This document shows positions 34,513 through 49,602 of a DNA stretch of 64,000 nt, piece after piece (the first letter of the stretch is position 1; each line of letters begins with the position of its first letter). Position numbers and translations under genes: made by a program. The DNA lies in assembly GCF_000420465.1 (NCBI RefSeq), contig NZ_ATUZ01000011.1:682001-746000 (forward strand), written 5' to 3'. The notes beneath the pieces were generated by a model, which saw only the letters and a list, made by a program, of their open reading frames with translations, had not been told where the DNA came from and made no database searches. The DNA is from Desulfovibrio desulfuricans DSM 642 (GTDB lineage: Bacteria > Desulfobacterota > Desulfovibrionia > Desulfovibrionales > Desulfovibrionaceae).

Positions 34513-34589
34513 GCGCCCGTAGCTCAGTTGGATAGAGCAGGAACCTTCTAAGTTCTTGGTCAGGGGTTCGATTCCTCTCGGGCGCGCCA
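34513..34589 (+). tRNA. tRNA-Arg (anticodon UCU), element attachment target
   Basis: A 77-base cloverleaf can be drawn: acceptor GCGCCCG/CGGGCGC, D-stem GCTC/GAGC, anticodon stem GGAAC/GTTCT with loop CTTCTAA (anticodon TCT), T-arm with GGTTCGATTCC, and an encoded CCA. It reads AGA codons. The 3' 49 bases are repeated at 49554-49602, so an integrated element uses this gene as its site and leaves it intact. Confidence 0.96.
34541..34589 (+). repeat. attL core (3' part of tRNA-Arg)
   Basis: These 49 bases, from the anticodon stem to CCA, are identical to 49554-49602. Identity resumes for nine more bases upstream after a single mismatch (G here, A at 49553). Confidence 0.95.
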
Positions 34590-34657: not shown

Positions 34658-34798
34658 GGATTGAATTTTTATGCTCAAACATATATGAAGCAATGCCATG
34701 ATTTCAATGAAAATATAGCTTCGTGGTTTTTATGCTGAACGATATCATTTGCAATGCCGCAATGGGGATCTGAGAGAAATCATTGAGAGAGGTGAATT

Positions 34799-36139
34799 GT
34801 GAAGTCACAGCATGAATTTCGTGATCCAATCCACGGGTTCATTACGATGCAAACTGTTGAAAGGGCTGTTGTTGATTCGTGGCCATTTCAACGATTGCGT
34901 GACATTCATCAATTAGCTATGACATACTTAGTTTACCCAGGGGCAACACACCGTAGATTTGAGCATTCACTTGGAGTGATGGAACTTGCATCACGGGTAT
35001 TCGACACAATTACATTAGAGAGTAATGCGAGAAATATCCCTTCCGGCGTGCGTGATGCGATTCCACAAATAGAAGACAAAGAAGGGCTTCCACGCTGGAA
35101 AAGAACTCTTCGTATGGCAGCATTGTGTCATGATCTCGGGCATATGCCTTTTTCGCATGCTAGTGAGGATCTTTTACCAGGGAGCTCGCATGAGCGTATG
35201 ACTTGGAGTATAATCCATAGCTGTGAAATGACTCCACTATGGGATGAGCTTCGTCTTGAGCCCAAAGAAATTGCCAAGCTTGCTCTTGGCCCCAAAGAAG
35301 TTGCAGAATTGCATTTTGATGAGGATGTCACCTTTAGTACGTGGGAATCTTTGCTGTCAGAGATTATTGTCGGTGATGCTTTTGGTGTAGACAGGATGGA
35401 TTATTTGTTACGTGATTCTCATCATCTCGGGGTGAGCTATGGGCGGTTTGATCTCCAGAGGATACTGCAAGGGCTCAGGATAGCAGCAAAGGCCCCGGAT
35501 GGACCTGAAGAAGGCGATCAAAGTTTGGAGCCTGTTATTGGGGTTGAGCATGGTGCCCTACATGCCGCAGCCGCGTTACTTTGGGCTCGATATTCAATTT
35601 TTTCTCAAGTTTACTTTCATCACGTGCGAAGGATTTATGATATCCACCTGCAAGATTTTATGAGAGCTTGCTTTCCCAAGGGCTATCCCGTAAAAGTAAA
35701 AAAATTTCTAGAAATAAGTGACAGCGCGGTCTTGCAAAAACTGTATGCGGCCGCTATGGATGGCAGCAAAGCAGGGCATGAAGACGCAGCGAGGCTAACC
35801 CAACGCAAGCATTTTCGTCGTATTTATCAACAGTCTAAGGCAGATGTCCAAATTGGGTTGCAAAAAGGAATTTTTGAACCTGGGCAGATCCTTTATGAAC
35901 GATTGAGCCAAGAGTTTGGCAAAGAAAATGTGAAGTATGACGCGGGCAGCAAAAAGCATAAGCGCGTGGACTTTCCTGTTGTATCCGAAGATGCTCAAAA
36001 GTTTTTATTGGCAAGCCAAGAAATGCCCACAATTAATAGCGTTCCAGATGTTGAGTCGCGTTATATTTTTGTCAGGCCCGATATCGTTTCAAAGGCTAGA
36101 TCTTTTTTAGAAAAAGAACGCCAGGAAATCTTGTCTTAA
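34799..36139 (+). CDS. HD-domain phosphohydrolase (dNTPase/SAMHD1-like), element cargo
   Basis: The 446-residue protein has the full HD set: His in GATHRRFEHSLG (51, 56), the HD pair in ALCHDLGHMPFSH (111-112) and the distal Asp in GDAFGVDRMDYLLRDS (198/201). Related enzymes are dNTP triphosphohydrolases and B. subtilis YwfO-type proteins. The start is GTG at 34799 behind GAGAGAGG. The DNA is plainly more AT-rich than the host genes around the element, a sign of separate origin. A YwgA-like gene follows 17 bases later, so they probably form one operon. Possible roles: nucleotide depletion against phage, or another conditional hydrolase. Substrate is unknown. Confidence 0.87.
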   Translation: MKSQHEFRDPIHGFITMQTVERAVVDSWPFQRLRDIHQLAMTYLVYPGATHRRFEHSLGVMELASRVFDTITLESNARNIPSGVRDAIPQIEDKEGLPRWKRTLRMAALCHDLGHMPFSHASEDLLPGSSHERMTWSIIHSCEMTPLWDELRLEPKEIAKLALGPKEVAELHFDEDVTFSTWESLLSEIIVGDAFGVDRMDYLLRDSHHLGVSYGRFDLQRILQGLRIAAKAPDGPEEGDQSLEPVIGVEHGALHAAAALLWARYSIFSQVYFHHVRRIYDIHLQDFMRACFPKGYPVKVKKFLEISDSAVLQKLYAAAMDGSKAGHEDAARLTQRKHFRRIYQQSKADVQIGLQKGIFEPGQILYERLSQEFGKENVKYDAGSKKHKRVDFPVVSEDAQKFLLASQEMPTINSVPDVESRYIFVRPDIVSKARSFLEKERQEILS

Positions 36140-36156
36140 AATATGAGGGTGTGACA

Positions 36157-36684
36157 ATGAGTGCTTTTGAAAACTACAGCCTTATATTACATTTAATGGA
36201 TTCATTGTATAATAAGGATAGTTGGTGCGGCGAAACGCATATTCAGAAAAGCATGTATGTTTATGAAACTGTTTTTTCTGTAAAAACTGAATTTAACTAT
36301 GTACTATATAAGCATGGTCCATATTCATTTAATCTGCATGACACGTTGAATGATCTTATGGCTTACCAGTTGGTTGAAGCAGAGCAGAGGCCTCCTTATG
36401 GGCCAAGGTTGAAGGTAACTGATCAGGGGCGCAGTTTTATGCAACAGCATGGAAGTGTTGATCCTAAAGGCCTAGAAGCCGTGACAACGGCTTTGCGGCA
36501 TGAAAGTGTTCAATCCCTTGAAAAGCTGGCAACTGCGCTTATGATTTTTGTTAAAGACCCAACAGAGCATGCAGAAAATCGTGCACAATTACTGCACGAG
36601 CTTAAGCCGCATGTCCCCTTAGAGGACGCACGGATTGCGACATGCCGTATGGATGTTATGTGGAAGCAATTAAAGGCTGCTTAG
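36157..36684 (+). CDS. YwgA-like small protein paired with the HD hydrolase
   Basis: The 175-residue protein has the layout of YwgA-type proteins: IQKSMYVYETVF, then FNYVLYKHGPYSFNLHDTLNDL and GPRLKVTDQGRSFM, a winged-helix-like arrangement also seen in SocA/Panacea-type antitoxin domains. GTG six bases earlier is a possible start; the ATG at 36157 has GAGGG at good distance. It is co-transcribed with the HD gene and ends at a strong terminator. I suggest it regulates or restrains the HD enzyme; no function is proven. Confidence 0.65.
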   Translation: MSAFENYSLILHLMDSLYNKDSWCGETHIQKSMYVYETVFSVKTEFNYVLYKHGPYSFNLHDTLNDLMAYQLVEAEQRPPYGPRLKVTDQGRSFMQQHGSVDPKGLEAVTTALRHESVQSLEKLATALMIFVKDPTEHAENRAQLLHELKPHVPLEDARIATCRMDVMWKQLKAA

Positions 36685-36688
36685 AATA

Positions 36689-36717
36689 AAAAGCCCTTCT
36701 AGCAAGAAGGGCTTTTT
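36689..36717. terminator. Bidirectional terminator
   Basis: AAAAAGCCCTTC and GAAGGGCTTTTTT form a stem with A-run and T-run on either side. It serves the HD/YwgA-like operon and, on the minus strand, the resolvase gene, whose last codons lie within it. Confidence 0.9.
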
Positions 36718-37277
36718 TGCTGTGAAGTTCGATCAAGGGCCGTGTAGAGTGTTTGCCGCGAAACACCTAAATCACGCGCAACTTGGGCGATCTTGGCCCC
36801 AGCATTAATCTTTTCGCGGGCTTCTGCTATCTGGGCTGCGTCTAATGCCGCTTTCCGACCTTTGTATTTCCCTTCCTTCTTTGCCAAGGCGATGCCTTCG
36901 CGCTGGCGTTCTCGGATCATGGCCCGTTCAAATTCAGCCACGCTGCCGATGATCTGCAACTGAAGGCGCTGGAACGGGCTGTCTTCCCCTGTAAAAATCA
37001 AGCCTTCTTTGTGGAACTGCACCGTCACGGCGCGGCTGGTCAAATCCGAAATGAGCGTAAGCAAATCCTGAAGATTGCGGGCGAAGCGGTCAATGCTGTG
37101 GACGTGGAGAGTGTCACCGTCACGCAGGTATTCTAAGCAAGCCTCTAGCTGAGGGCGCTGCCTGCTTTTGCCGCTGGCCTTGTCGGTGAATACCTTGTCC
37201 AAGGTAGTGCCTTCAAGCTGGCGGCCTGTGTTCTGGTCAACGCTGCTGACACGGATGTATCCAATTTGCTTGCTCAT
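36699..37277 (-). CDS. Serine recombinase (resolvase/invertase family)
   Basis: The 192-residue protein is a complete small resolvase: catalytic Ser in IGYIRVSSVDQNTGRQL (about residue 10-11), SIDRFARNLQDLL, AEFERAMIRERQREGI, and a C-terminal HTH (KIAQVARDLGVSRQTLYTAL). It resembles Tn3-type resolvases, which cut two sites and resolve cointegrates or invert segments. The region just upstream has matching half-sites. In this element it may resolve dimers or tandem copies, or switch a segment. Confidence 0.92.
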   Translation of the reverse strand: MSKQIGYIRVSSVDQNTGRQLEGTTLDKVFTDKASGKSRQRPQLEACLEYLRDGDTLHVHSIDRFARNLQDLLTLISDLTSRAVTVQFHKEGLIFTGEDSPFQRLQLQIIGSVAEFERAMIRERQREGIALAKKEGKYKGRKAALDAAQIAEAREKINAGAKIAQVARDLGVSRQTLYTALDRTSQQKSPSC

Positions 37278-37501
37278 GGGTGATTCTCCTGTAAAGTGTC
37301 TAATTAGAATTTAAGAATCAAAATTGATTATGTCAATAAATTATTTTTATAATCCTATTTTGACACTTTTTAGGCAAAAGCTAGTTGTTAATTTAGACTA
37401 TACTCAAATTTGACATATTACTTTAATGAATTGGGCTTGACGGAAGTCTTAATTCCGAATAAGTTCCAATTAAATTCCTTTTACGTTTTTTGGGTGGAGC
37501 T
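37278..37501. promoter_or_regulatory. Putative resolvase site (res) and divergent promoters
   Basis: The gap between the divergent resolvase and HTH genes is AT-rich and carries related half-sites: AAAGTGTC at 37293, its complement GACACTTT at 37362, and TTTGACATATTACTTT at about 37408. Their spacing over about 120 bases resembles a multi-subsite res region. Assignment is by position and pattern. Confidence 0.5.
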
Positions 37502-37714
37502 ATGGTTGAAAAAATAAACTGGCCGCACATAGGTATGACCGTCGAAGAGTGCGCGGAGGCTTTGCGCATTGATCGTAAAACCATATTTTTGGCTCTTCAG
37601 GACGGATTGCCTGCAAGAAAAGTTGGGCGAAGTTGGAGAATTGATCCCGATGCGGTCAAGGCATGGCTTGCAACTGGCAATGCCACACAGGCCTTGGACA
37701 GTGGTGAGGAATAA
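37502..37714 (+). CDS. Excisionase-like HTH protein
   Basis: The 70-residue protein has the helix-turn-helix_17 pattern: MTVEECAEALRIDRKTIFLALQDGLPARKVGRSWRIDPDAVKAWL. Proteins of this size often act as recombination directionality factors for an integrase or resolvase. It is divergent from the resolvase gene, which would suit that role, and a hypothetical gene follows three bases later. A TTG start at 37490 is possible. Confidence 0.7.
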   Translation: MVEKINWPHIGMTVEECAEALRIDRKTIFLALQDGLPARKVGRSWRIDPDAVKAWLATGNATQALDSGEE

Positions 37715-37717
37715 GAG

Positions 37718-38089
37718 ATGGCCCAGCGAAGGAGCTGCGAACTCCTGCCGGGCCTAACCGCAGAGCACATGAGAGGTGCTATTATGGTTGAAACAAGTGT
37801 GCAGAAAAAGGTCGAAAAGTACAAGACATTCCAAATTGAAGAAATAGTTGCTGTGTACAAAAATATGGATGAATTCTGGCATTCAATCTCAGATATCCTA
37901 CTTCGTCTTCAGCTTGTTCAGTCTTTCTCGGAGTATGAGACAGAAAAATTGATAGGGGAAGAAATTCAGATAAACGCAATAGCATTAACCCTCAAAGATA
38001 TAACGCAGCTTTTAGAATCTGAGGTAGATAAATTTTTTTCTTTGCACATGGAACTTTCCCCTTATGATGTAGGCAGGGAAAGTATATAG
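37718..38089 (+). CDS. Hypothetical protein
   Basis: The 123-residue product is helical and charged, with no domain I recognise. The start at 37718 has GAGGA seven bases upstream and follows the HTH gene by three bases; an in-frame ATG at 37784 behind GAGAGGTG is the alternative, which would drop 22 residues. A terminator ends the operon. Confidence 0.55.
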   Translation: MAQRRSCELLPGLTAEHMRGAIMVETSVQKKVEKYKTFQIEEIVAVYKNMDEFWHSISDILLRLQLVQSFSEYETEKLIGEEIQINAIALTLKDITQLLESEVDKFFSLHMELSPYDVGRESI

Positions 38090-38113
38090 CTGTGATGATA
38101 TTGATCAAGACAC

Positions 38114-38148
38114 AAAGAGGGCTGGGGTAACTCCCAGCCCTCTTTGCA
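38114..38148 (+). terminator. Rho-independent terminator
   Basis: AAAGAGGGCTGGG and CCCAGCCCTCTTT form a perfect 13-bp stem; it ends the two-gene operon at 37502-38089. Confidence 0.85.
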
Positions 38149-38188
38149 TCTGCTTGCTTCCGCATGGCTGGCTCAGTATGCTGACTAA

Positions 38189-38545
38189 ATGCGAAAGCTC
38201 TCTTGCTGCCTGCTCCTTGCCGCGCTGCTGATCTTTGTAATCCCTGATTTCCATGTGTTTGGGGACGCTTCAGACGCGCGGATTGCCGCCTTAGTTGTCA
38301 GCGATGCTGCAACAAAACTTGCCGCCAAGGAAATGGACTACAAGAGCGGGGTTTACAGTGAGCTGCGGGATCGAGGCTTTTCAGATTCTGAAATCCGTGA
38401 ATTCATGCGTCCCATTTTAGAGAAGGCAAGTTTTTCAGGTCAGGACATAATCAAGTACTTCAGCCTGTTTGATCCGAACTACCACGGCGAGGAACTGAAG
38501 CGCCTGGACGATCACGGCAAGATTGTTGATAACCTGCTCAACTGA
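38189..38545 (+). CDS. Small exported protein with an ejection-protein N-terminal motif
   Basis: The 118-residue protein has a signal peptide (hydrophobic core CCLLLAALLIFVI, about residues 6-18). Residues about 56-98 (YSELRDRGFSDSEIREFMRP, then FSGQDIIKYFSLFDP) closely match residues 15-55 of the 1400-residue protein encoded convergently, whose stop is the very next base. Such a match between a small secreted protein and the start of a putative ejected protein suggests a shared partner or mimicry. The family is not known to me. The ribosome site is weak. Confidence 0.65.
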   Translation: MRKLSCCLLLAALLIFVIPDFHVFGDASDARIAALVVSDAATKLAAKEMDYKSGVYSELRDRGFSDSEIREFMRPILEKASFSGQDIIKYFSLFDPNYHGEELKRLDDHGKIVDNLLN

Positions 38546-41500
38546 TTATTTCCCTTCCGCCCGCTGCTTGAGCCGCTCAATATCCGGCTGCAACGTTTCA
38601 AACACCATATTGCCAAACTTGGCCACCTCGATGGCATGAAAGTGCAGGCTGTCTATTTGCTGGCGCTTTTCGTCCGGCGTCATGCTCGGAATTTTGTTTA
38701 TGAGGTCAATGGCCTTTGTAATCTCAGACAAAGCCTTATGCGGCGCGTCCATTGCCTGATAGACGGAATAGGGCAGCAGGTTGGCCACGTCATTGTATTT
38801 GAAGTCCTTGCCCAGGGCGTTAATGGTCTTCAGGTAGCTGGTGGATTCTTCATAGTGGTCAAAGAACCGCTGAATACTCTCCGCCCCCATACTTGGATGG
38901 CGAATCACGAAAGCCCGTACAAAGGGAATATCTGCCAGCGTGGCGGCGGGCTTTACGGGATCATCAACAACCCCAGCTTTGCGGGCCATGGCATCGACCA
39001 ACTGAAGGGCATACCTGCCCATGCCGCCCGTCCAGCCGCGAATATAATTTTCAGCGCGGGCAGGGGAGAATGTGTTCATTTCTCCCACTGGCGGCAACGT
39101 GCCGACAAAGTTTGAAAGAGCTTTTGTGAGTTCCGTAGTGCTGGGGGTGTACTGATATTCCGGAAGCAAGCCCTCTCTGTTTTTGGGAATGATAGGCCGG
39201 TCAAAGGGCAGCGACCTGTTTGCAAAGGCTTCGATCACCGGGGCGAAGGCAGTCGGCACAAGGTTGGGTGCAGAAACATCGAGCATGGACTTGCCAAGCC
39301 CCCTGAAGGCCTCCTGTCTGGCTTTCTCCACGCTGCCATACTTGTCGCGCGCTGCATCGAGGATGAATTCTGTAGCCCGCTCAAGCGTTGAACCGAACAT
39401 GACGCCTTGTTCAAACGGCTTGGGAATGCGCAAGAGAACCTTGTTTTCGCCTTGCCCGATAGGCGTAATCCAGAACATATCCCTTTGGGCGCGCGGAACC
39501 TCGGCAACGTCCTTGTCTCCATAGTTGTTAATGGCGTTGAGTATGGACGGAATGCCAATGAACAGAGCGGTGCGCACAAGAAAGCGCCTGGGGTTTTCCA
39601 CGGCTCCGCGCGCTGTTCTGTCCAGCCCCTGCATGCTGGCATTGAAGAATGCCGTTATAAGGTTGAACGAGGCCGTCAGCTTGCCCCGGCGCGAAAAGTC
39701 CATAATGTCCCGTGATTCATAGGCGGCCTGCATCAATCCGGCCTTGTCATTACCGTGCTTCTCTGTGGCCTTGCCGAACTCGCCCAAGCGGGTCATTTTT
39801 TCCGAAAGTTCCGAGCCAAGGCGCAGCAGCTCCAAGGGATTCTTGACCACGTTCCAAACGCGCTCAGTGTAGCCGGTGGCCTCAATGTCTTTGAGCGTTG
39901 TTTGAAGTGTTGTTCTGTCCATGCTCACAAGGCTGGCCTGATCTCCGCCAGCCTTCACCCAGCTCCAATAAGTATCGTCCTTGGTAACTGCGCGCTTCAA
40001 TCCCTTGGCCGTGTCCAGGCCGGGAATGAAGCCAGTGCGAGAAAGAACGCCCGTAGAAACAGCGTCGCGGATGAGGTTTCGAACCATAAAGTCGGGCGTA
40101 AGCGTGGCCCCAGCCCGCAGCATCTTTGCCGGAATGGAAATGAGTTCTACCAGCAAGGGAATGGTTTCAGAACTCAGGCCGTTCATGACTTCGGCAATCT
40201 CCGGGGCCACCTGATACACTTCGCGCTTTCCATCGCGGAAAACGGCGATCTGGCTTTTTTTGTCCAGCGTAGCGGCGTTCTGCCAGAACGTGAGCATTTC
40301 GCCCATGTCAGCAGATTCAGCTATCGCCTTGATTGAAGCTTTAACGCTGGGGCTGATTGGGCCAAGGGAATCAATGAACGCCTTGCTCACGTCCTCAGCC
40401 CTGACCTGCACCGCAGCTTTCGGCGTAGGCAATTTTTCCACCAGCCAGCCTGCGCCATCGGTTTTACTGGCAAGGTCTGTGAGGGCGCGGCCAATGCCGT
40501 TCTTTTCCGCCGCTTCAATCATGGCGTAGGTGTTCTTGATGATGGATTCCAGCGGGTCAATAATATCGCGCCCGCTGCCCTTGATGCGCCGTATGGGGTT
40601 GCGACCAGTGAGCGACTTGCCGCTTCCAAGGAAGCCGCCGGCATTTTCCATGACGCGGAAGAACGGGACATAGTTTTGATTCATTTCCCGCATGGCTGCC
40701 GCCGTTTCCGCGCTGAGCATTCCAGAATCTACCAGGTAATTCACAACGTGGTTCTGGTATTCATCCAGCTCGCGGGCCAGAGGCTCGTACTTTTCGCCAA
40801 GCCTCTCAGCCGTTGCGCGCATGGCTTCAGGGCGAATGCCAGACTTGATGCCCCGGCCCTCAAGCTCAAGGCCACGCATGGAAACAAGGAAAGCCCTGAA
40901 TTCGTCCAGATTGTCCACGGCCCGCAGGGTTTCTGCCAGGGGCTTACCAACATTTTTCCACTCACCATAGGTGAACGGGGAACGCTCAATAAAGTGCGTG
41001 GCCTTGCCCTTGGCCCCGGCAAACGTGCGGGCAAGCGTGTAGGGGTTCATATCCGCAGGCAGTTCCTTGCCTTCAGCAAGAATATCTGTGGCTTTTTTCA
41101 GAGGGTACAGACGGTCAACGAAATTGGTGTAGAGGCTATCCCAAGTGTCCTTGGAAAGAAGGCGCGAAATAAGCCCCTCACTCTCACGGCCTTCAATGCT
41201 GATATGTGAAAGAACTTCCTGGGCGGCTGGTTGGTCTGCCCAGCGCTTGACCACTTCGCGCGCGTTTAAAAGTGCCGTGCCGAATTCTGGGGCGCGCTCT
41301 GAAAGCGTCTTTTCAATGTGCTCGTAGAAGCGAGGCGCAACGGCCTTGGCTTCATCGGGGCTGACCACATATTTTGCCACGAACTCCGCGAAGCCTTCGG
41401 GTAATGCAGATTGCCCCGCGCGGGGTTGGGTGGCAATGGGGGCAAGTTCATCACGAAATGCCCGCAGCGGGGCGGCTGAAATATCGCCGAAAAGCTGCTT

Positions 41501-42748
41501 TTGGATGTGGTGGCCAGCCTCATGCACAACGGTGGCCACGTCGTTGGCGGTGCGCGTCCTGATCACTTCGGGCGTGATTTTATAAATTCCCTCGGCGTTT
41601 CTGCCAGATGGCCCCATTTTGCCCGTTCGGATTGGCACATCAAGCGCGTCAGTCAACGATTGCACCACGTCAGAAAGCGGAATTGCATCGGCCCTGCTCA
41701 ATTCGCCTTCGGGCATAACTGGTTTGTCTTCAGCAATGGGGATGTGTGTTCCACTGCCTGCGCTCTGAAGCGCGCCTTCATCGCTTGCAACGGTTGGAGC
41801 GCCGGTTTCTGCCTCAGATTCGGGCTTGATGTCTTGCGGGCGTTGGGCGGTGATCTCTTCAGCTATGGCCTGCGGAACATCCCGGTTGATGGAAAGCATA
41901 TCCTGCCGGACTGTCGGATCAGCCTCAGCCGCCTGGGCAACGGCAATGGGGTCTTTGCCCGTTTTTGCGTAGATATCTCGCAGCTTGGGAACCATTTTAG
42001 GGACGTGGCGGAGGCCTCCCGCAGCGTGAAGGCCACCCACAAGAATTGCTGCGTCAACAAATTCGTGCGGTTCTGGCAACCGGCCTTCTATTCCTGCGGC
42101 GGCGGTGGGCATGGTGGCTGTTTCTGCTGCCAGGCTTGCCGCAGTCTGCATGCCAGCCGTAGCACCAAGCATTGCGGCCCCACGGCCAGCAACTACGCCA
42201 GCGCCGCCCGTCAGGCCGCCTATAACCGCGCCTTTGGCCGCAGATTCGAGGACAGCACCAGACCGGCGCAAAAATTCCTCTGAAGACCGCACATCGCCGT
42301 TTTTTATCTGCTCCATGTAGTAGGCGCGTGTTCCCTCTGTAAGTGCCATCGCCGAAGCCGGAACGCTTACAGGCGCAGCCGGGCCGCCAAGCAAGCCCGC
42401 AGCAGCACCAGCGGCCAGGGTAGGCACGTCACCTGCCAGTGTACCCACCTGCATGCCCACGCGCTGCATGGTGGACATCTGGGAAACCTGCTGTGAGGTA
42501 AGGCTGTCCGGCAGCTTTTCGCGTGAGGCTAGGCCCGTAACTGACCCCTGGAAGCCGTATTGAATGGCATCCAGCATGGAAACAGGATCATAGCCATTGA
42601 AGTATGCGTTGATTTCTTGGTCAGAGAAACCGCGATCTGTTAAATGGGGGCGCATGTAGCCCTGAATTTCTTGGTCAGAATATCCACGAGTGCGCAATTC
42701 AAGATAGAAATCTTGATTTCCCTTTGACTGCTCAAGTTGCTGGCTCAT
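38546..42748 (-). CDS. Large ejection-type phage protein (polyvalent, LPD38-like) with HExxH metallopeptidase motif
   Basis: The 1400-residue protein starts with two copies of a RG[YF]SDQEIxxY[MF] motif (residues about 21-50), then Ala/Gly-rich, possibly membrane-active stretches (about 95-250), a zincin site VVHEAGHHIQKQ (HExxH at 409-413), a long helical middle, and a C-terminal region (AGATLTPDFMVRNLIRDAVSTG; ASMQGLDRTARGAVENPRR) that resembles the LPD38 domain of large polyvalent phage proteins. Such proteins are carried in podovirus-like virions and injected with DNA. Its ATG overlaps the stop of the 547-residue gene (ATGA), so the two are co-translated. The intact frame implies function. 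Confidence 0.75.
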   Translation of the reverse strand: MSQQLEQSKGNQDFYLELRTRGYSDQEIQGYMRPHLTDRGFSDQEINAYFNGYDPVSMLDAIQYGFQGSVTGLASREKLPDSLTSQQVSQMSTMQRVGMQVGTLAGDVPTLAAGAAAGLLGGPAAPVSVPASAMALTEGTRAYYMEQIKNGDVRSSEEFLRRSGAVLESAAKGAVIGGLTGGAGVVAGRGAAMLGATAGMQTAASLAAETATMPTAAAGIEGRLPEPHEFVDAAILVGGLHAAGGLRHVPKMVPKLRDIYAKTGKDPIAVAQAAEADPTVRQDMLSINRDVPQAIAEEITAQRPQDIKPESEAETGAPTVASDEGALQSAGSGTHIPIAEDKPVMPEGELSRADAIPLSDVVQSLTDALDVPIRTGKMGPSGRNAEGIYKITPEVIRTRTANDVATVVHEAGHHIQKQLFGDISAAPLRAFRDELAPIATQPRAGQSALPEGFAEFVAKYVVSPDEAKAVAPRFYEHIEKTLSERAPEFGTALLNAREVVKRWADQPAAQEVLSHISIEGRESEGLISRLLSKDTWDSLYTNFVDRLYPLKKATDILAEGKELPADMNPYTLARTFAGAKGKATHFIERSPFTYGEWKNVGKPLAETLRAVDNLDEFRAFLVSMRGLELEGRGIKSGIRPEAMRATAERLGEKYEPLARELDEYQNHVVNYLVDSGMLSAETAAAMREMNQNYVPFFRVMENAGGFLGSGKSLTGRNPIRRIKGSGRDIIDPLESIIKNTYAMIEAAEKNGIGRALTDLASKTDGAGWLVEKLPTPKAAVQVRAEDVSKAFIDSLGPISPSVKASIKAIAESADMGEMLTFWQNAATLDKKSQIAVFRDGKREVYQVAPEIAEVMNGLSSETIPLLVELISIPAKMLRAGATLTPDFMVRNLIRDAVSTGVLSRTGFIPGLDTAKGLKRAVTKDDTYWSWVKAGGDQASLVSMDRTTLQTTLKDIEATGYTERVWNVVKNPLELLRLGSELSEKMTRLGEFGKATEKHGNDKAGLMQAAYESRDIMDFSRRGKLTASFNLITAFFNASMQGLDRTARGAVENPRRFLVRTALFIGIPSILNAINNYGDKDVAEVPRAQRDMFWITPIGQGENKVLLRIPKPFEQGVMFGSTLERATEFILDAARDKYGSVEKARQEAFRGLGKSMLDVSAPNLVPTAFAPVIEAFANRSLPFDRPIIPKNREGLLPEYQYTPSTTELTKALSNFVGTLPPVGEMNTFSPARAENYIRGWTGGMGRYALQLVDAMARKAGVVDDPVKPAATLADIPFVRAFVIRHPSMGAESIQRFFDHYEESTSYLKTINALGKDFKYNDVANLLPYSVYQAMDAPHKALSEITKAIDLINKIPSMTPDEKRQQIDSLHFHAIEVAKFGNMVFETLQPDIERLKQRAEGK

Positions 42749-44388
42749 TCTGCCCCTCCGATAGGATTGCGCTTTAAGTTGTCTGCAATACCCTCTTTGG
42801 GCTTTTTCTCTTTGCCAGCCCCACCAGCACTGATAACCCTGTTCACGTTGCTCAAGGCATCGTCAACGGTTATGGCGTTGCTATTCATGATGGACATGGG
42901 CGTATCACTGTTGAACAGCTTTTCCACGGCTTCAGGCCCACCTTTTTTGTATGCCTCGGTAATGACGGTGCTCAGTTGGCTGCGTGCACGGTCTTCCTTG
43001 ATGGCAGCTTCTGGCGTGCCTGCGGCAAACTGTGAACGGGCATATGCATTTTTAATGAGACTGTCGGCGCGCTTGAGGTAATCTTTCAGCGGGCCGTCCA
43101 TATCCTTGCGCATGCCCTTGAGCATTGTCACATCGCCCACGCTGGCCTTGCCCTGGGCAAGCATCACGTCAATGGGGGCATCGGAATCAATGGAGCCGTT
43201 TACGATCTGCCGGGCCATATCGTTCACGGCGGCGGGGTCGCGTGTTTTGCCTATGGTTCCTTCTTCCAGCTTCTTGCCCATTTCAATTTTGGTAATGGCG
43301 TCAAGGTTGGAGTTCTGCAAATCCTGGTATGCCTTGGCAGGGTCTGGGGCGATTCCCTTGTCAGGGTCGCCCATGAGCGTGGAGTAAATGCCGTTTACGG
43401 TGCTGGTGACATAGATGTCGTTTTTTTGCTTCTCAACGGTTTTGTTGAAGCTCCACTGCGTTTGCAGCATGCTGCGCACGCTGATGGCGGTTTTTGCATC
43501 CATGCCGTATTTTGCCATGCCTTCCGGCGTGGATATTTCGGCAATGCCCTTCAGCGGATCATTGGCAAACGCGCCGACGAAGCGCATTTCTTTTTCAGCT
43601 TTTAAACGCGCCTCTGCACCGTGCTGGGCGTTCTTTATTCGTAGCAATACTTCATCGTAAGAGTCCGCCAATTCTCCACGAAACTGGGTTGCTAATGTCT
43701 GCGCCTTGCCGAAATTATCTTGAGCAACGGCGCGGCCAATGAGGTTTGACGCAAGACGCTGGTCAACCTTTGCCAATGTGGCAGTGAGGTCGCTGCCGGG
43801 AAACATTTCTTGCAGCTTAGTTTTGTAGGTGGCGCGCATACTGGCTATTTGCGCCGGATCATCCACCTTTGCGGCCTGCTGCATGAGGGTTGCTGCCTCG
43901 CCGTCGGCAACTTCCCCGCGCCAAAGCTCATTTTGCTGGCGGGCATAGTGCCCACCCTGGCGCACGGCCTCTATGCTGCGGCGGCCCCACTGCAGGTTGA
44001 ACAGGTTGGCGGCAAGGGAGTTGCCCTGCAACTGTTCACCATATTTTGCGCCGGTGGTCTGCATCCACTGCTCAAAGTCTTGCGGCGCGGTTTCTGCCTC
44101 CTTGCGCCGCTTTTTTTGCATGTAGTCATTTTCAAAGGTGGAATAGTCTTTTTCCGCCTGCTGCATGGTGTCGAGCGCAAGGGTAACAGCCTGCTGGCGT
44201 TCATGCCCCTCGCCGTAGTCAATAAGACCTTTGCCAAGTTGCGCCCCGGCGCGGGCAATGATGGCGGGTGTTACGGTATCATGCGTTTGAGCGGCAAGAG
44301 GGATGCCCGACGATCTGCCTACGCTGCTGAACTGTGTATCACCTTGGACAGCTCGTGGTGTGTAGGAAATCAAACTTCTAGATGCCAT
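42745..44388 (-). CDS. Internal virion/ejection-type protein
   Basis: The 547-residue protein is long, helical and charged, without a signal peptide: MASRSLISYTPRAVQGDTQ, then ALDTMQQAEKDYSTFENDYMQ and repeated helical blocks through to AGGAGKEKKPKEGIAD. This matches internal core or ejection proteins coded next to large peptidase-bearing ejection proteins in podophages. It precedes the 1400-residue gene with an ATGA overlap. AAAGGA is its ribosome site. Assignment rests mainly on composition and neighbour. Confidence 0.6.
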   Translation of the reverse strand: MASRSLISYTPRAVQGDTQFSSVGRSSGIPLAAQTHDTVTPAIIARAGAQLGKGLIDYGEGHERQQAVTLALDTMQQAEKDYSTFENDYMQKKRRKEAETAPQDFEQWMQTTGAKYGEQLQGNSLAANLFNLQWGRRSIEAVRQGGHYARQQNELWRGEVADGEAATLMQQAAKVDDPAQIASMRATYKTKLQEMFPGSDLTATLAKVDQRLASNLIGRAVAQDNFGKAQTLATQFRGELADSYDEVLLRIKNAQHGAEARLKAEKEMRFVGAFANDPLKGIAEISTPEGMAKYGMDAKTAISVRSMLQTQWSFNKTVEKQKNDIYVTSTVNGIYSTLMGDPDKGIAPDPAKAYQDLQNSNLDAITKIEMGKKLEEGTIGKTRDPAAVNDMARQIVNGSIDSDAPIDVMLAQGKASVGDVTMLKGMRKDMDGPLKDYLKRADSLIKNAYARSQFAAGTPEAAIKEDRARSQLSTVITEAYKKGGPEAVEKLFNSDTPMSIMNSNAITVDDALSNVNRVISAGGAGKEKKPKEGIADNLKRNPIGGAE

Positions 44389-44712
44389 AAGAAATCCTTT
44401 CCCCTGTGGGATTCATGGGGTTCTCCTTCAGCGTTGTTTTGATGTTTTTCAACAGCCTGTTGAAAAGTGGTGTTTTAAAAAGGAAAAAGACTGCATGTAC
44501 TTGGTGCTTCATTTTTTCTGTATCGCTATATGGCGCTATATGCTCACAGGGGTGCTTCCTATGCGAACAGCGCGTATCTGCTCACCTCGATTTCTTTTTT
44601 TGCATATATGTTTCTGAATTATTACTTGGAGTTATGTGGGAAATTTTTTGAATTGCTCGGTACATTTCTTTTTCAAAAAGAAATGTTTTGCCCTGTGGAA
44701 AAGTGGGGCTGT
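44389..44712 (-). promoter_or_regulatory. Leader of the ejection-protein operon with two palindromes
   Basis: No supported gene. Visible structures are TTTTCAACA-gcc-TGTTGAAAA (44446-44466) and a perfect ACATTTCTTTTT-c-AAAAAGAAATGT (44662-44686). A 12-codon frame with GGAG upstream (44378-44416, minus) overlaps the start of the 547-residue gene and could be a coupling leader. The palindromes may be operators or mark the end of the upstream recombinase transcript. Confidence 0.5.
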
Positions 44713-45357
44713 TCAGGACAGGGCGTAGCTGTGCCTGGCTTCCAACATCTGCATGTTTTTGAAGGCGACTTCAGGGTCAACAGGCAGATACTTTTCAGTG
44801 TTCTTCATGTCCGCATGGCCCAGGGCGCGGGCGACCTCGCGCATGGGATCAATGCGCTCACCAGCCTGAACCCGGTCAACGGCAGCGCAGAAAATTTCTG
44901 TGGCAAAAGTCTTGCGCCAACTGTGTGTGGCCAACGTCCCCAAGTCCCGGCGAAGCCCTGCCTTGTTCGCAGCGTCATTGAAAATCTTCCATGCTTCTGC
45001 CACCTGCATGGGCCGGTCGCCCAGTTGACTGCGAAATAAGAACTGATCTGGGCCAAGGTGGCCGTACTTGAGCAGCCAATCCAGCTGAAGCCGGATTGCT
45101 TCGCGGGTTTGTGCTGGCAGCAGGATAGTGCGGCCCTGCGCCGCCTGCTTCATCTTGCCGCGCTGTACCTGAAGCGCCTGAACCACCTGCCGGTTTTGCA
45201 GCACGTCTGAAACCCTGATGGAAAGAGCCTCATGGATGCGAAGGCCCGTAGTAAGGCAGAGCAGGTGCAAGCACTGATTGCGCAATTTGTGGCGGCCAGA
45301 ATAGGCGCTGTACATTGCGGCACATTCTTCAATCTTCAGAGGTCTGCATGGGGGCAT
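44713..45357 (-). CDS. Short tyrosine recombinase (catalytic domain only)
   Basis: The 214-residue protein holds the catalytic set: Arg in TTGLRIHEALSIR, HSWRKTFATEI (H-x-x-R), LGHADMKNTEKYLPVD (His, and Tyr in EKY). It lacks the usual N-terminal core-binding domain, like small phage or plasmid recombinases. It differs from the integrase at 48232. It could resolve multimers or act in replication of the element. The start overlaps the end of the HTH gene behind it. Confidence 0.85.
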   Translation of the reverse strand: MPPCRPLKIEECAAMYSAYSGRHKLRNQCLHLLCLTTGLRIHEALSIRVSDVLQNRQVVQALQVQRGKMKQAAQGRTILLPAQTREAIRLQLDWLLKYGHLGPDQFLFRSQLGDRPMQVAEAWKIFNDAANKAGLRRDLGTLATHSWRKTFATEIFCAAVDRVQAGERIDPMREVARALGHADMKNTEKYLPVDPEVAFKNMQMLEARHSYALS

Positions 45358-45565
45358 TGTTTTCTTCCTTTTGTTCTGGGGTGTTTTGAGCGTAGTCGGC
45401 TATCCATTGCTCATGGATGCGCCAGAGCGGTCTTGTTGCGCATGACGTGTTGCTGGCCCGTAGCCTGCCGGTTGTTATGAGGCGGCGCACCGTAGTGGGG
45501 GAGACGCGAAGAATTTCCGCCACCTCAGTCAAAGTTCGCCAGCCTTCGGTAAATGAGGCAGTCAT
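45329..45565 (-). CDS. Excisionase-like HTH protein
   Basis: The 78-residue protein has the HTH_17 pattern WRTLTEVAEILRVSPTTVRRLITTGRLRA. It overlaps the recombinase gene by 29 bases and the initiator by 4, so the three are coupled. It may direct the short recombinase or regulate this operon. Confidence 0.7.
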   Translation of the reverse strand: MTASFTEGWRTLTEVAEILRVSPTTVRRLITTGRLRASNTSCATRPLWRIHEQWIADYAQNTPEQKEENNAPMQTSED

Positions 45566-46470
45566 GCTGACTCCCTCTGTGAGGGGCGCAACCGTTGGGG
45601 CATAGCGTCTTGCAGTAGGTCTGAAATATGTTCAGGGCAGGCATTGCCGCTTTTTCGCTGGGGTGTGCTGCGGCAGGAAGCATGATTTTCTCCGACCGCT
45701 TCTTCAACATTTGCGGCATGCCGTTTGACCAGTTCGTCAAAACTGGGGCCGTTCAAAACCCTCTGCTTGCGTTCCGTGCTTCTGTAACGCTCTTTCACAG
45801 CAGAAAAAGCCCATTTGCGTAATGCCAGATAGTGATTTTTGTATGGGTCTTCGCCCTTGCGCGCGCCAAGCCATAGGCCAAAAAGTTCTATGGCTTCAGC
45901 CGTCATGCCTTCGCCATATGCTTGCACAAGGCGGCTGTGTTCCGCATCTGTGAGCAGGACATTCCCCAATTCACCGTAGGGGCGTTTGCCCTCAGATGGA
46001 GGAGATGCCGGGGGAGGGGGGAGTTCCCCCTCTTCTCTTTGGTTTCTTTTATGGTTCTCTTTAAGATTCTGGGTGTCACTGTGACGGGGGTCTGGCGTCA
46101 CTGTGTCGGGGGTAGGCGTCACCATGTCGGGGGTGGGGGTGACATCATGACGGGGGAGGGGCGTCACTATGTCGGGGGTAGGGGTGACACAGTGTCGGGG
46201 GTCTTCTGGTGACAGGGGGGCTTCCAGCAATTTGTAGACTGTGGTCTTTCCGCTTACCCGCTCACACACGATAAGGCCAAGTTTTTCAATAGCCTTAATG
46301 CTACGCTGCACGGTTCTGTCTGAACAATTTGTATCAAGGCACAGTCGGCGTATGGATGGCCAGCATTCACCCGCATCATTTGCCCTGTCTGCCATTGAAA
46401 GCAGAATAATTTTTTGTGTGCGGGTTAGTATTTGCGTTTCCCACGCCCAACGCATTGCTTTAAGGCTCAT
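45562..46470 (-). CDS. Replication initiator with embedded iterons (HTH_36, lambda-O/RepA type)
   Basis: From the ATG at 46470 (GGAGGGGAG upstream) the protein has 302 residues. The N-terminus MSLKAMRWAWETQILTRTQKIIL...MADRANDAGECWPSIRRLCLDTNCS is a winged helix typical of phage/plasmid initiators. Next comes a Thr-Pro-Asp repeat zone (VTPTPDIVTPLPRHDVTPT and onward), which is the translation of DNA iterons at 46075-46206, then a helical C-terminal half. An origin inside the initiator gene is known in lambda O. The protein probably binds its own gene and loads host helicase. Confidence 0.8.
   Translation of the reverse strand: MSLKAMRWAWETQILTRTQKIILLSMADRANDAGECWPSIRRLCLDTNCSDRTVQRSIKAIEKLGLIVCERVSGKTTVYKLLEAPLSPEDPRHCVTPTPDIVTPLPRHDVTPTPDMVTPTPDTVTPDPRHSDTQNLKENHKRNQREEGELPPPPASPPSEGKRPYGELGNVLLTDAEHSRLVQAYGEGMTAEAIELFGLWLGARKGEDPYKNHYLALRKWAFSAVKERYRSTERKQRVLNGPSFDELVKRHAANVEEAVGENHASCRSTPQRKSGNACPEHISDLLQDAMPQRLRPSQRESA
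46075..46206. repeat. Six-copy iteron array, probable replication origin
   Basis: About 22-base units of the form GTCACTGTGTCGGGGGTAGG start at 46075, 46097, 46118, 46140, 46163 and 46185. The step of 21-23 bases, two helix turns, places copies on one face of the DNA. They lie wholly inside the initiator coding region. Confidence 0.85.
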
Positions 46471-46759
46471 AACTCCCCTCCAAATTGCCTTGGGCGTCTT
46501 CTCGCCCATGAACACCCATAAGCTGAAAGATATTAGCGTGCTCATGGGGAGGAATCCGGCGCAGAATGGACAGGCGTTCCAGCTCTACAAGAACAGCCTG
46601 GACGTCAGCGGGAGAAATACCCGTATCGAAGCTCAAACGATCCAAGTGCGGGAAGAGTGTGTGATCCTCCCCGGCCCGGTCTGCCATGGACAGGAGAACA
46701 AGTTTTTGCAGGGGCGTGACGGGCTGCCGCCAGGCCCACAGCGTAGCGTCTAAGCTCAT
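46460..46759 (-). CDS. Small initiator-like winged-helix paralogue
   Basis: The 99-residue protein MSLDATLWAWRQPVTPLQKLVLLSMADRAGEDHTLFPHLDRLSFDTGIS is a clear paralogue of the first 50 residues of the adjacent initiator, but lacks the iteron-coded zone and C-terminal half. It overlaps the initiator start by 11 bases. It could be a truncated duplicate that binds the same iterons and limits replication, or a loader partner. Confidence 0.75.
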   Translation of the reverse strand: MSLDATLWAWRQPVTPLQKLVLLSMADRAGEDHTLFPHLDRLSFDTGISPADVQAVLVELERLSILRRIPPHEHANIFQLMGVHGREDAQGNLEGSYEP

Positions 46760-46767
46760 GTCTTCTC

Positions 46768-46989
46768 CTACGTGCGATCTGGTTGTACTGCGCAGGAGTC
46801 CAGATACTCGTACAGGTCAGAGAGGCGATAACGAATTTTGCGGCCAACCTTGAGAAATGCGGGCGGCTGCCTCATGTACCGCCTGTGCTGCAAGGTCTTG
46901 GGGGTAAGACCGATAATTGCCGAAGCCTGGTGTTCATCCATTGTGACCAGCTTGGGGTCTTGCTGCATTTGGGAAGTGGGGGTGCTCAT
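46768..46989 (-). CDS. AlpA/excisionase-like HTH protein
   Basis: The 73-residue protein has MDEHQASAIIGLTPKTLQHRRYMRQPPAFLKVGRKIRYRLSDLYEYL, a MerR-like HTH_17 fold as in AlpA and plasmid or phage excisionases. It is the first gene of the replication operon, so it probably regulates it. GAGGA precedes the start. A palindrome lies just upstream. Confidence 0.8.
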   Translation of the reverse strand: MSTPTSQMQQDPKLVTMDEHQASAIIGLTPKTLQHRRYMRQPPAFLKVGRKIRYRLSDLYEYLDSCAVQPDRT

Positions 46990-47509
46990 ACGTCCTCGCT
47001 AGGGGGTAAAGATGATGTGCCAAAGTTGGCAAAACCGTATCATGGGTTTTCGGTTAAGAAGGCAAAGTTGAGGGTTTAACGGCAAAATAAGTGCTCACGG
47101 GACGCTGAGGGAAAGTAAAATTTTAGGGCAAAACTATTGACAGCTTTTGCAAAAAAATAGTTTTAGCGAATTTTGATTTTTGTTATATGTGAAGTTAGGG
47201 TGAGTGTGCGCATTCTAGATAGTAAACGGCCTGATGCTATAATTGTTGAAAGTGCTGTGAGGTGTGAATTAAGAAGACGCTAGCATAAGGCAGAAAATGT
47301 TAGCAATACTTTTTTAAGTTGCTACACAACACCAAACACAAAACACCAATTACCAAACATATAATTGTTGAAAATAAATTATTATTATGTAATTATTAAA
47401 AATAATAACATAGATGTAGTCGTTTTTGTGGGCGTGTTGCGTTGTTTATTTTATGTATTTATGCGCGGATATTTTTTGAATAACGATTATAATTTGTGCA
47501 AAAATAAAA
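46990..47509. promoter_or_regulatory. AT-rich control region of the replication operon
   Basis: About 520 bases without a supported gene. A palindrome TGCCAA-AG-TTGGCA (47018-47031) lies about 30 bases upstream of the HTH start, and GGCAAA-type motifs recur to about 47140, including GGCAAAACTATTGACA. The remainder, to 47470, is very AT-rich. It probably contains the operon promoter and binding sites for the HTH proteins. Confidence 0.55.
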
Positions 47510-47536
47510 GAGCCTGCTCAAAATATGAGCAGGCTC
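47497..47536 (-). terminator. Rho-independent terminator of the toxin-antitoxin operon
   Basis: GAGCCTGCTCA and TGAGCAGGCTC form a stem that on the minus strand is followed by TTTTATTTTT. Confidence 0.88.
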
Positions 47537-47570
47537 GCAAATATCACGGCTTGAATTTTTAAGGCTTATT

Positions 47571-47930
47571 CTAAATGTTCAGCAACCGGCGTGGGTCAAT
47601 GTTCAGTGCATCGGCCAGCAGGCGGGCGTTTTTTTTGCCGATGGGGCGCTTGCCATTTTCCATGGCAGACAAGTGCGGCACGCTGATTCCGGTCATTTCG
47701 GAAAGCTGCCGTTGCGTGAGGTTCTCCCGATACCGAGCGCCGCGCAGATACATGGCGGGGATACACTCTTCACCAGTGAGGCTCAAGGCTTCCCGCCAGG
47801 GGATCGATTCGTTTTCTTCCCGCAGGCCATAGCCGTGCATGGTGTTCAAAATTTTCTCTACCATGTCATGAGGCACGGCAAAGGAAAGAATTTTTGTGTC
47901 AGTACGGGGCGCGTTCGTGCGTTCCAACAT
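47571..47930 (-). CDS. XRE-family antitoxin (HigA-like)
   Basis: The 119-residue protein has a C-terminal XRE helix-turn-helix (LTQRQLSEMTGISVPHLSAMENGKRPIGKKNARLLADAL, about residues 73-110). It follows and overlaps the RelE-like toxin gene by 32 bases, the toxin-first order of HigBA. It should neutralise the toxin and repress the operon. Confidence 0.85.
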   Translation of the reverse strand: MLERTNAPRTDTKILSFAVPHDMVEKILNTMHGYGLREENESIPWREALSLTGEECIPAMYLRGARYRENLTQRQLSEMTGISVPHLSAMENGKRPIGKKNARLLADALNIDPRRLLNI

Positions 47931-48177
47931 ATGTCACCTCGATAAGTTTCATGCAATCTGCGCTTTCTTCCCATACGGCCACGTATGTGGGGTGGCCTTT
48001 CTTCAAATGGCAGTGATGGGTTTTTGCATCCAGCTTGCCATAATTGGGCCAGTCACCACGCACCGGCCCCTCAAGCTCAATGTCGAGCATAAGCGCGAGT
48101 AGCGTTTCAAATACAACCTTGGGGAGGCGCACAAGCTGTTTTTGCGCCTTGCGGGTAACATTGACTGTCCAAGCCAC
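47899..48177 (-). CDS. RelE/HigB-superfamily toxin
   Basis: The 92-residue protein has the RelE-type small fold: VTRKAQKQLVRLPKVVFETLLAL, then WPNYGKLDAKTHHCHLKKGHPTYVAVW and KLIEVTYVGTHERAPY. Such toxins are ribosome-dependent mRNA nucleases. The start is GTG at 48177 behind GGGAG. It lies beside the integrase and may stabilise the element. Confidence 0.82.
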   Translation of the reverse strand: MAWTVNVTRKAQKQLVRLPKVVFETLLALMLDIELEGPVRGDWPNYGKLDAKTHHCHLKKGHPTYVAVWEESADCMKLIEVTYVGTHERAPY

Positions 48178-48199
48178 TACTGATCTCCCTTGGGTGTAT

Positions 48200-49553: not shown

Positions 49554-49602
49554 GAACCTTCTAAGTTCTTGGTCAGGGGTTCGATTCCTCTCGGGCGCGC
49601 CA
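49554..49602 (+). repeat. attR core (duplicate of tRNA-Arg 3' end)
   Basis: This is an exact copy of 34541-34589, including CCA, without the 5' half of a tRNA. It marks the right end of the element. Confidence 0.95.

Follow-up and report, generated by a model that had tools for sequence, protein, structure and literature searches.

A repeat-bounded element with two large ejection-type genes

The window studied here is the whole 64,000-nucleotide stretch at positions 682,001 to 746,000 of contig NZ_ATUZ01000011.1 of Desulfovibrio desulfuricans DSM 642 (coded G000:C11:682001-746000; the genome, G000, has 3.39 Mb on 20 contigs). It contains a 15.0-kb integrated element, called W below, which occupies window positions 34541–49602 and carries, beside genes for integration and replication, two large genes that correspond by position to the DNA-ejection genes of podoviruses. 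W lies between perfect 49-bp direct repeats, and the corresponding empty tRNA-Arg(tct) site was found in two of the four relatives inspected. In one of these, G052, the left flank (93.6% identical over 1290 bp) and the right flank (90.5% over 1351 bp) join at the tRNA; the site in G103 is empty too, at lower identity.

Read from the attR end, the gene order is the integrase, a helix-turn-helix (HTH) regulator with a small partner, an AlpA-like HTH protein, two replication-initiator-like proteins, an excisionase-like HTH protein, a Xer-like recombinase, and the 547- and 1400-residue proteins, followed by a convergent gene for 118 residues, a gene for 123 residues, another excisionase-like HTH protein, a resolvase, two cargo genes and attL (Table 1). 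The scan covered 16 open reading frames (ORFs) of about 70 residues or more between the repeats, spurious antisense ones apart, 10 of them with Pfam and PHROGs, five with PHROGs (four of these also with Pfam) and one with both. No gene for the large terminase subunit (TerL), portal, capsid or tail was recognised by Pfam or PHROGs among these ORFs, and none for a relaxase or a type IV secretion system. Likewise, TerL, portal, scaffold, major capsid protein, tail tubular proteins A (TTA) and B (TTB) and gp14 of a podovirus prophage in genome G017 found no match by phmmer in the three elements searched.

A gene for altering capsid size or redirecting packaging was not recognised by Pfam or PHROGs either, beside weak matches of two small HTH proteins to the small-terminase (TerS) profile phrog_57, both of which rank below the excisionase matches of the same proteins; the HTH part of the resolvase also weakly matches small-terminase profiles. 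On these matches, a TerS-like role of the small HTH proteins is conceivable. With this caveat, the statement of an earlier note on this DNA that no structural or packaging gene is present was upheld, now within defined att limits. With att sites and an integrase of its own, an O-like replication initiator of its own, and genes for a complete virion missing among the scanned ORFs, W has several features of a phage satellite.

Table 1. Features of element W in window coordinates, with the evidence for each assignment
Feature	Position	Strand	Evidence
attL	34541..34589	.	49-bp repeat copy; 3' part of tRNA-Arg(tct) 34513-34589
HD-domain, dGTPase-like cargo protein, 446 aa	34799..36139	+	Pfam HD E 2.9e-8; PADLOC dGTPase E 1.3e-7
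DarG-like cargo protein, 177 aa	36151..36684	+	PADLOC DarG E 2.4e-10; without match in PHROGs or Pfam
Serine resolvase/invertase, 192 aa, far edge of conserved core	36699..37277	-	Pfam Resolvase E 8.5e-37
Excisionase/AlpA-like HTH protein, 74 aa	37490..37714	+	phrog_66 E 5.1e-5; HTH_17 E 1.1e-8; weaker phrog_57 (TerS) E 0.0056
Conserved protein of unknown function, 123 aa	37718..38089	+	45% identity over 93 aa in G059 element
118-aa protein, signal-peptide-like N-terminus (by eye)	38189..38545	+	Convergent with gp16-like gene; resembles residues 14-55 of gp16-like protein
gp16-like large ejection protein, 1400 aa	38546..42748	-	LPD38 E 5.3e-38; phrog_9854 E 1.6e-130; HEAGH; phage synteny; dN/dS
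gp15-like ejection protein, 547 aa, all-helical in model	42745..44388	-	Synteny; family profile match; weak fold matches that include T7 gp15
Xer-like tyrosine recombinase, 214 aa, near edge of cassette	44713..45357	-	Pfam Phage_integrase E 5.2e-19; four-element clade; identity break just after
Excisionase/AlpA-like HTH protein, 78 aa	45329..45565	-	phrog_66 E 9.5e-8; HTH_17 E 1.8e-10; weaker phrog_57 (TerS) E 6.7e-5
O-like replication initiator, 327 aa	45562..46545	-	phrog_1032 E 4.4e-26; phrog_391 E 3.1e-22
Second replication-initiator-like protein, 99 aa	46460..46759	-	phrog_6643 E 2.3e-18
AlpA/excisionase-like HTH protein, 73 aa	46768..46989	-	phrog_66 E 0.00018; HTH_17 E 0.00038 (under the threshold)
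HTH regulator (119 aa) and 92-aa partner	47571..48177	-	HTH_3 E 5e-13; phrog_32175 E 5.3e-17
Integrase, 383 aa	48232..49383	-	Phage_integrase E 1.9e-25; 78% identical in G059 element
attR	49554..49602	.	Second 49-bp repeat copy

The two large proteins in the place of gp15 and gp16

The 1400- and 547-residue ORFs have no internal stops, and the stop codon of one overlaps the start of the other by four bases, in agreement with the earlier note, which had described them as unbroken and translationally coupled. The HExxH site that it had pointed out in the larger protein is HEAGH at residues 409–413 and is invariant in the three element copies aligned, and the LPD38 domain of this protein scored 131.4 bits against a curated Pfam cut-off of 27. 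By tblastn, the 1400-residue protein has matches in 51 of 50,697 phage records. The 547-residue protein has no match in the same records and matches no Pfam or PHROG family; the Xer-like protein also has no tblastn match there.

The assignment of the two proteins depends largely on gene order, which is also how homologues of gp15 have mostly been matched, together with size (PMC8954989; this and all other papers are cited by PubMed Central number). In phage T7 the order gp14-gp15-gp16 closes the structural block, and relatives of the 1400-residue protein in phages sit at the gp16 place. For example, MW202898 and HTVC034P have their relative behind internal virion protein B and a protein of roughly 500 or 580 residues; it is the last of the large genes and directly precedes the tail fibre. 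The prophage G017:C1 carries TerL, a portal-type head-tail adaptor, TTA and TTB, a gp14-like gene (phrog_418, E 0.0012) and a major capsid protein named by its position, with no PHROG match; a 744-residue relative of the 547-residue protein lies between its gp14-like gene and a 1608-residue relative of the 1400-residue protein. Among these three phages, only the G017 prophage has a relative of the 547-residue protein at the gp15 position; when A9 was compared with the proteins at that position in MW202898 and HTVC034P, the probability was 0.5. The family profile of the 547-residue protein aligned over 255 columns with a profile of gp15-like proteins from other podophages (E 5.7e-14). By position, the two proteins correspond to gp15 and gp16, and homology of both to conjugation or other non-virion factors was not found.

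Structure prediction gave weak resemblances to podovirus ejection proteins. The low-confidence model of the 547-residue protein (predicted local distance difference test, pLDDT, 64) resembled T7 gp15 (7eyb_A) with a Z score of 8.1, a root-mean-square deviation of 8.3 and 250 aligned residues (829 chains aligned), and the ejection chains of the cyanophage A4 pre-ejectosome (Z 7.5), DEV gp72 (Z 7.4) and the PhiM1 ejectosome (Z 6.5) were also among the matches, scores that may mean little for helical proteins when below about 13. None of 128 Foldseek matches of this model reached E <= 0.001; the best was a chain of the cyanophage A4 pre-ejectosome (E 0.14). The model of the C-terminal 760 residues of the 1400-residue protein had a pLDDT of 35.5 and was dropped, and profiles against Protein Data Bank sequences gave nothing credible. 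Searches for related loci yielded none with A1 in 60 candidate stretches of genome contigs and none with A2 or A3 in 84 stretches of viral contigs each; A1 in viral contigs gave four distant loci, and A4 in genome contigs one locus out of 45 stretches.

Related elements in other genomes

Relatives of the 547-residue protein occur in 10 of 101 genomes, of the 1400-residue protein in 24 of the 348 genomes of the class (many of them in phages or unresolved loci) and of the 118-residue protein in 3 of 348, the genome of W being included in each count. Three more repeat-bounded elements with the anatomy of W were found in two genera. Two are in the same genus as W: the G059 element (14.8 kb; 51-bp perfect repeats at tRNA-Arg(tct)) and the G017 element (15.9 kb; 59-bp perfect repeats at tRNA-Leu(cag)), the latter with a different integrase. 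The resolvase of W is 89–92% identical in two other elements. The third, the G162 element, is in another genus (13.8 kb; 53-bp perfect repeats at tRNA-Arg(ccg)) and has an integrase, a replication initiator (Rep), a Xer-like recombinase, a 528-residue gp15-like protein and a 1214-residue protein that matches phrog_6651, 'internal virion protein' (E 7.9e-54).

Further loci vary this theme. On a 17-kb contig of G019, the related Xer and resolvase genes flank a different trio of about 700, 512 and 874 residues, of which the second matches phrog_342, 'internal virion protein with endolysin domain' (E 4e-7), and the third phrog_684, 'virion structural protein' (E 2.5e-166); a DUF927/Toprim protein is also present. 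An island in the one-contig genome G056 (L022/L101/L102, G056:C1:252000-299999) has an integrase, helicase-like and primase-like proteins, a 566-residue gp15-like protein and a 2204-residue protein (phrog_9880), and a 19-kb contig of G305 has a partial integrase, a Prim-Pol/AAA protein and proteins of 574 and 1595 residues, the latter with LPD38. In the stretches fetched for these loci, phmmer detected no relative of TerL, portal or TTB. Fragments in G035, G343, G167 and G106 are uncertain.

Selection on and exchange of the ejection cassette

The 547-, 1400- and 118-residue genes are treated here as a cassette. Between the G059 and G017 elements, the ratio of nonsynonymous to synonymous substitution rates (dN/dS) of the three cassette genes was 0.067 (1377 codons), 0.079 (570 codons) and 0.080 (118 codons) at a dS of about 0.4, and by this measure the ejection genes are under purifying selection. 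Because these two elements occupy different tRNA genes and have different integrases, the simplest reading is a capsid-less ancestry with selection acting on the ejection genes, although a capsid-bearing ancestor is conceivable for part of the divergence. Between W and G059, the C-terminal half of the 547-residue gene gave a dN/dS of 0.181.

Judged from identity profiles and trees, the genes of the ejection cassette behind Xer are exchanged together. W and the G017 element are 83–95% identical in Xer, mostly 50–78% right after it through the 547-, 1400- and 118-residue genes, and 79–89% at the resolvase, while G017 and G059 show 72–74% in Xer and then 85–95% over the cassette. In the Xer tree, W, G017, G059 and G019 group together (100/99), with three podophages as the neighbouring clade (97/94), and G162 sits on a long branch of unsure placement; for two podophages in this tree, G025 and G116, tail and ejection genes were seen, not terminase or portal. 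The gp16 tree places W together with the G017 phage (100/99), and on it the label 'element' has to change at least twice. Residues 330–1400 of the W protein are 89.3% identical to the protein of the G017 podovirus prophage (1071 codons), and residues 1–329 only 56%.

The gp15-like protein is itself a mosaic, as its parts 1–204 and 205–547 have different relatives: the N-terminal part matches 7 of 12 and the C-terminal part 5 of 12, G305 alone being in both sets. The gp15 of T7 is linked to gp14 through its N-terminus, and its C-terminus is stabilised by gp16 (PMC8954989). Taken together with the mosaic protein and with the fact that no gp14 was recognised in the elements, this link makes donor-matched N-termini a testable idea.

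The 118-residue partner

The 118-residue gene abuts the gp16-like gene convergently in W and lies 13–17 bases from it in the G059 and G017 elements, where its product is 54–56% identical. In the G017 phage, a relative is found 1.4 kb beyond the gp16-like gene and is also convergent. The local alignment of the 118-residue protein with residues 14–55 of the 1400-residue protein scored 110, and no score above 48 arose in 1000 shuffles. By analogy with SieA of phage P22, which acts on ejection proteins to stop the injection of DNA at the inner membrane (PMC10883804), the 118-residue protein may have a role in exclusion.

Possible particle donors

The first candidate donors are temperate podophages such as G017:C1, whose gp16-like gene was exchanged with this type of element. 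The earlier note had suggested looking for co-resident prophages with similar ejection genes. No second copy was found in the genome of W with the 1400-residue query (except the motif in the 118-residue gene), the 547-residue query, the type-2 gp15 profile, whose sole hit was the gene of W itself, or the 2204-residue type, a search without a positive control; a podovirus prophage with a similar gp16-like region occurs in a relative, G017.

Beyond what the earlier note had considered, the genome of W holds a podoviral structural cluster without detectable gp15 or gp16, which is the second candidate. It lies at about 609–624 kb of G000:C11 (L181:4181-18600), roughly 93–107 kb from the left end of W, and runs from an endolysin (phrog_315, GH108) through a 113-residue holin-like protein (Pfam GTA_holin_3TM, weak, E 0.00089, below the cut-off), a 118-residue protein of no family named from its small-terminase position, TerL (phrog_2), a head-tail adaptor (phrog_332), a scaffold/protease-like protein, the major head protein (phrog_212) and tail proteins (phrog_394, phrog_376) to a gp14-like protein (phrog_418, E 2.5e-15). 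A DnaJ gene and then a ClpB-like gene, the latter named from its translation only, mark its end. A search of this genome with the terminase family PF03354 found none, which is no proof of absence, as the TerL gene was found there by phrog_2.

Twenty-five such cluster loci were compared, comprising 20 chosen for contig quality, the one near W and four in genomes with elements, so that they are not a random sample; the downstream stretch available varied from 2.7 to 25 kb. TTB at the 24 further loci, all in the genus of W, is 67–99% identical to the copy in the genome of W, against 29–37% for three prophage TTB proteins. A gp14 gene is present in all 25 and is followed by DnaJ in six. An ejection homologue was detectable at one locus only (G021a), the other 24, including that near W, being without. 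No relative of the W integrase was found in 60 kb around the cluster of the same genome, and one was present in the fetched stretch at two of the 24 other loci (L183, L205).

From its genes, the cluster looks like that of a gene-transfer agent (GTA). In D. desulfuricans, Ddes_0720 has been described as the small terminase of a GTA (PMC6854486) and Ddes_0703-0715 as a 'putative GTA island' (PMC5701242); the cluster is likened here to that island, not equated with it. It also resembles FpGTA of Faecalibacterium in being podovirus-like and GTA-like, but FpGTA is from another phylum, and the available part of its description mentions no satellite (PMC12946183). The gene sets of the element and the cluster are complementary, and the two may work together.

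Interpretation and alternatives

W represents a real, recurrent and selected type of element with unusual gene content, a kind of phage satellite, and a role in delivery is the best-supported explanation of that content. We propose, with a probability of roughly 0.55, that these are satellites that replicate themselves and add their own gp15 and gp16 to particles made by another podoviral genome. The element would excise with its own integrase, replicate with its own initiator and bring an exchangeable ejection cassette of gp15-like protein, gp16-like protein and small partner. The cassette proteins would be loaded together with satellite DNA into particles that take their terminase, portal, shell, tail and gp14 from a different podoviral genome, and on infection the satellite gp15 and gp16 would form a conduit for DNA across the periplasm and carry their polyvalent domains in with the DNA. 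Induction, packaging, loading into a donor capsid and transfer are inferred steps of this scheme. The ride in foreign particles is suggested by the fact that the ejection genes are intact and under selection and that particle-building genes were not recognised.

The earlier note had put forward an element that supplies only the injected proteins, to capsids made by a helper. This interpretation is partly supported: the att-bounded element, the gp15/gp16 place of its proteins, its recurrence in other genomes and another genus and the conserved reading frames all stand, and entry of the proteins into virions and mobilisation by a helper are presumed. The conjunction is more than chance, because both genes are conserved under purifying selection in other elements.

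Several observations count against the proposal. Neither an experiment nor a transfer event was seen. No packaging site common to element and phage was found, blastn of W against the G017 phage giving ejection-gene similarity only, and hhalign detected no sequence match of either protein to T7 gp15 or gp16 (probabilities of 1.6 and 0.3). The 547-residue model is a weak fold match; unrelated helical proteins reach Z 9.7. Between W and G059, the dN/dS of the 1400-residue gene is 0.236 at a dS of 1.73, and that of the N-terminal half of the 547-residue gene is 0.863 in a poor alignment (24% identity). In the stretches fetched from G101 and G042, two of the four relatives inspected, no left flank was detected next to the repeat. 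Moreover, the check for structural genes in G162, G019, G305 and G056 relied on phmmer and lists of ORFs, only some of their proteins being scanned with PHROGs or Pfam, and G056 as a capsid-less island of a second lineage is tentative, since its limits are only an 18-bp repeat near tRNA-Met. The TTB gene is present in all seven listed genomes with elements, but 185 of the 348 in the class and 48 of the 79 in the genus have it too, so that its co-occurrence with the elements is weak evidence. Lastly, in Staphylococcus aureus phage 80alpha, one ejection protein was dispensable for satellite transduction (PMC7290940).

The main rival, which we consider unlikely, is interference: the satellite gp15 and gp16 would be built into virions of a competitor or helper and spoil DNA delivery, or act as host immunity, and the 118-residue protein would block incoming ejectosomes. 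The defence-like cargo at the far end of two elements and the gp16-like N-terminal motif of the 118-residue protein behind a signal-like segment are consistent with it, and there are precedents in P22 SieA (PMC10883804) and in a tail-assembly-interference system that also occurs in mobile elements such as phage-inducible chromosomal islands (PICIs; PMC11364771). However, full-length proteins with HExxH and LPD38 have been retained where a decoy could presumably be shorter, and the relative of the 118-residue gene near gp16 of a podovirus prophage indicates that this partner is not specific to satellites.

A bolder proposal, in our judgement quite unlikely, is that two halves of a podovirus are kept apart within one genus, as a vertically inherited chromosomal cluster that would make DNA-packaging particles with gp14 and without gp15 and gp16, and as mobile elements that integrate in tRNA genes with gp15 and gp16 only, which together would make an infectious vehicle for the element. 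The cassette would then be a shuffled 'delivery key', with an N-terminal part of gp15 that fits the donor gp14 and a C-terminal part that, like gp16, fits the recipient envelope, and the 118-residue protein, as a periplasmic mimic of the gp16 N-terminus, would shut out competitors with the same key. A related explanation appears improbable: the chromosomal GTA-like cluster would be the main particle donor, and the element would restore its infectivity and travel in its particles. The course of the cluster near W from endolysin to gp14-like protein and then DnaJ, its weak GTA_holin_3TM match, the lack of a detectable ejection homologue at nearly all cluster loci, the high identity of TTB among them and the reported island of D. 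desulfuricans (PMC6854486, PMC5701242) agree with it, but TTB genes are common without elements, the cluster gp15 and gp16 could be too divergent to detect or lost as unneeded, and the gp16-like gene of W is close to a phage gene and not to any cluster gene.

Very improbable, in our view, is a decaying prophage, the remains of a temperate podophage after loss of its terminase-to-gp14 block, with the last genes still to decay. The podophage G035:C56 does have an integrase, Rep, Xer, TerL, portal and TTB in this order, and the element resembles it minus the block from Xer to gp15. Against decay stand the purifying selection between elements in different tRNA genes with different integrases (part of the divergence could predate capsid loss), the junction and content that W, G059 and G017 share, the membership of four elements in one Xer clade, the exchange of the cassette as an intact unit and the analogous element of another genus in G162. 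An isolated remnant was rejected because of this recurrence, selection and cassette exchange. A conjugative or mobilisable element whose polyvalent protein is delivered by a type IV secretion system is barely credible and was rejected: polyvalent proteins do occur in conjugative elements (PMC5512222), but the 16 scanned ORFs include no match to a relaxase or to a gene of such a secretion system, and the annotated relatives of the 1400-residue protein that were inspected lie among podophage virion genes.

As to the origin of these satellites, loss of the terminase-to-gp14 block from a podophage is as likely as acquisition of ejection genes, because their integrase, Rep and Xer are related to those of podophages with terminase and tail genes. 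The temperate podophages G017:C1, G025:C1 and G035:C56, from the genus of W, share the ejection genes with the elements, and the Rep and Xer of G025 and G035, as well as the integrase of G035, are related to theirs; they differ in having tail genes, with terminase and portal seen in G017 and G035, whereas the elements are without the block up to gp14.

Comparison with known systems

Like W, PICIs, including the S. aureus pathogenicity islands (SaPIs), and P4-type satellites have an integrase, a replication module, cargo and defence genes, tRNA targets and a size of about 15 kb. To our knowledge, the known satellites take over the shell or the packaging step. If the proposal of delivery by satellite gp15 and gp16 is true, W would belong to a family that contributes only the delivery step, which would make DNA ejection a point of competition between mobile elements and would allow the parts of gp15 and gp16 that match the capsid donor and the recipient cell to be told apart. 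If the link to the cluster holds, it would give an entry to a GTA-like system outside the Alphaproteobacteria.

Several PICI/SaPI and P4-type satellites have been reported to redirect capsid assembly (PMC12409344, PMC10945586, PMC7552001), and no gene of this kind was recognised in W. Closer in this respect are the phage-inducible chromosomal minimalist islands, small integrated satellites without capsid-remodelling genes, with their own excision and replication genes and with a defence system reported; their core is, however, three proteins for excision and replication, no virion protein being named in the available text (PMC10803314), while the core of W includes two large ejection proteins. 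The Streptomyces satellites Mulch and Flayer also bring structural genes of their own, but they encode encapsidation machinery and are without key replication genes (PMC10690885), and W has ejection genes only, together with its own replication genes. The T7 ejectosome is similar in the order gp14-gp15-gp16 and in the weak fold resemblance of the 547-residue model to gp15; it differs in sequence and in the LPD38 polyvalent region and the unrecognised gp14 of the elements. Polyvalent proteins with LPD38, which share this domain and the HExxH site with the 1400-residue protein, have been described for phages and conjugative elements, the word 'satellite' being absent from the part of that text available (PMC5512222). 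No description of an ejection-only satellite was found in the titles and abstract openings of the partial literature collection searched.

Other genes and loci

The gene at 34799–36139 might be guessed to be an integrase from its place by the tRNA, which was ruled out by its Pfam assignment as an HD-domain protein. The cargo slot beside attL (34799–36684) varies between elements, with the HD/dGTPase-like and DarG-like genes in W and a SIR2-type defence candidate (PADLOC) in the G017 element. The HTH regulator and its 92-residue partner are arranged like a toxin-antitoxin pair and may be one; at the same spot, the G059 element has a 706-bp duplication with 92% identity.

In G101 (L211), the right flank is 92% identical and has an att end, with the left flank not adjacent, so that this tRNA-Arg site may hold another insertion. 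Two tRNA-Ser elements, L139 (G298) and L140 (G282), have a related integrase and Xer, and in G282 also the resolvase, and phmmer recognised neither ejection nor capsid genes in them. Finally, in a deltaproteobacterial metagenome-assembled genome (L057, JAISOL010000014.1), a 1551-residue gp16-like gene lies between an integrase fragment and a tRNA-Leu gene and is perhaps a remnant.

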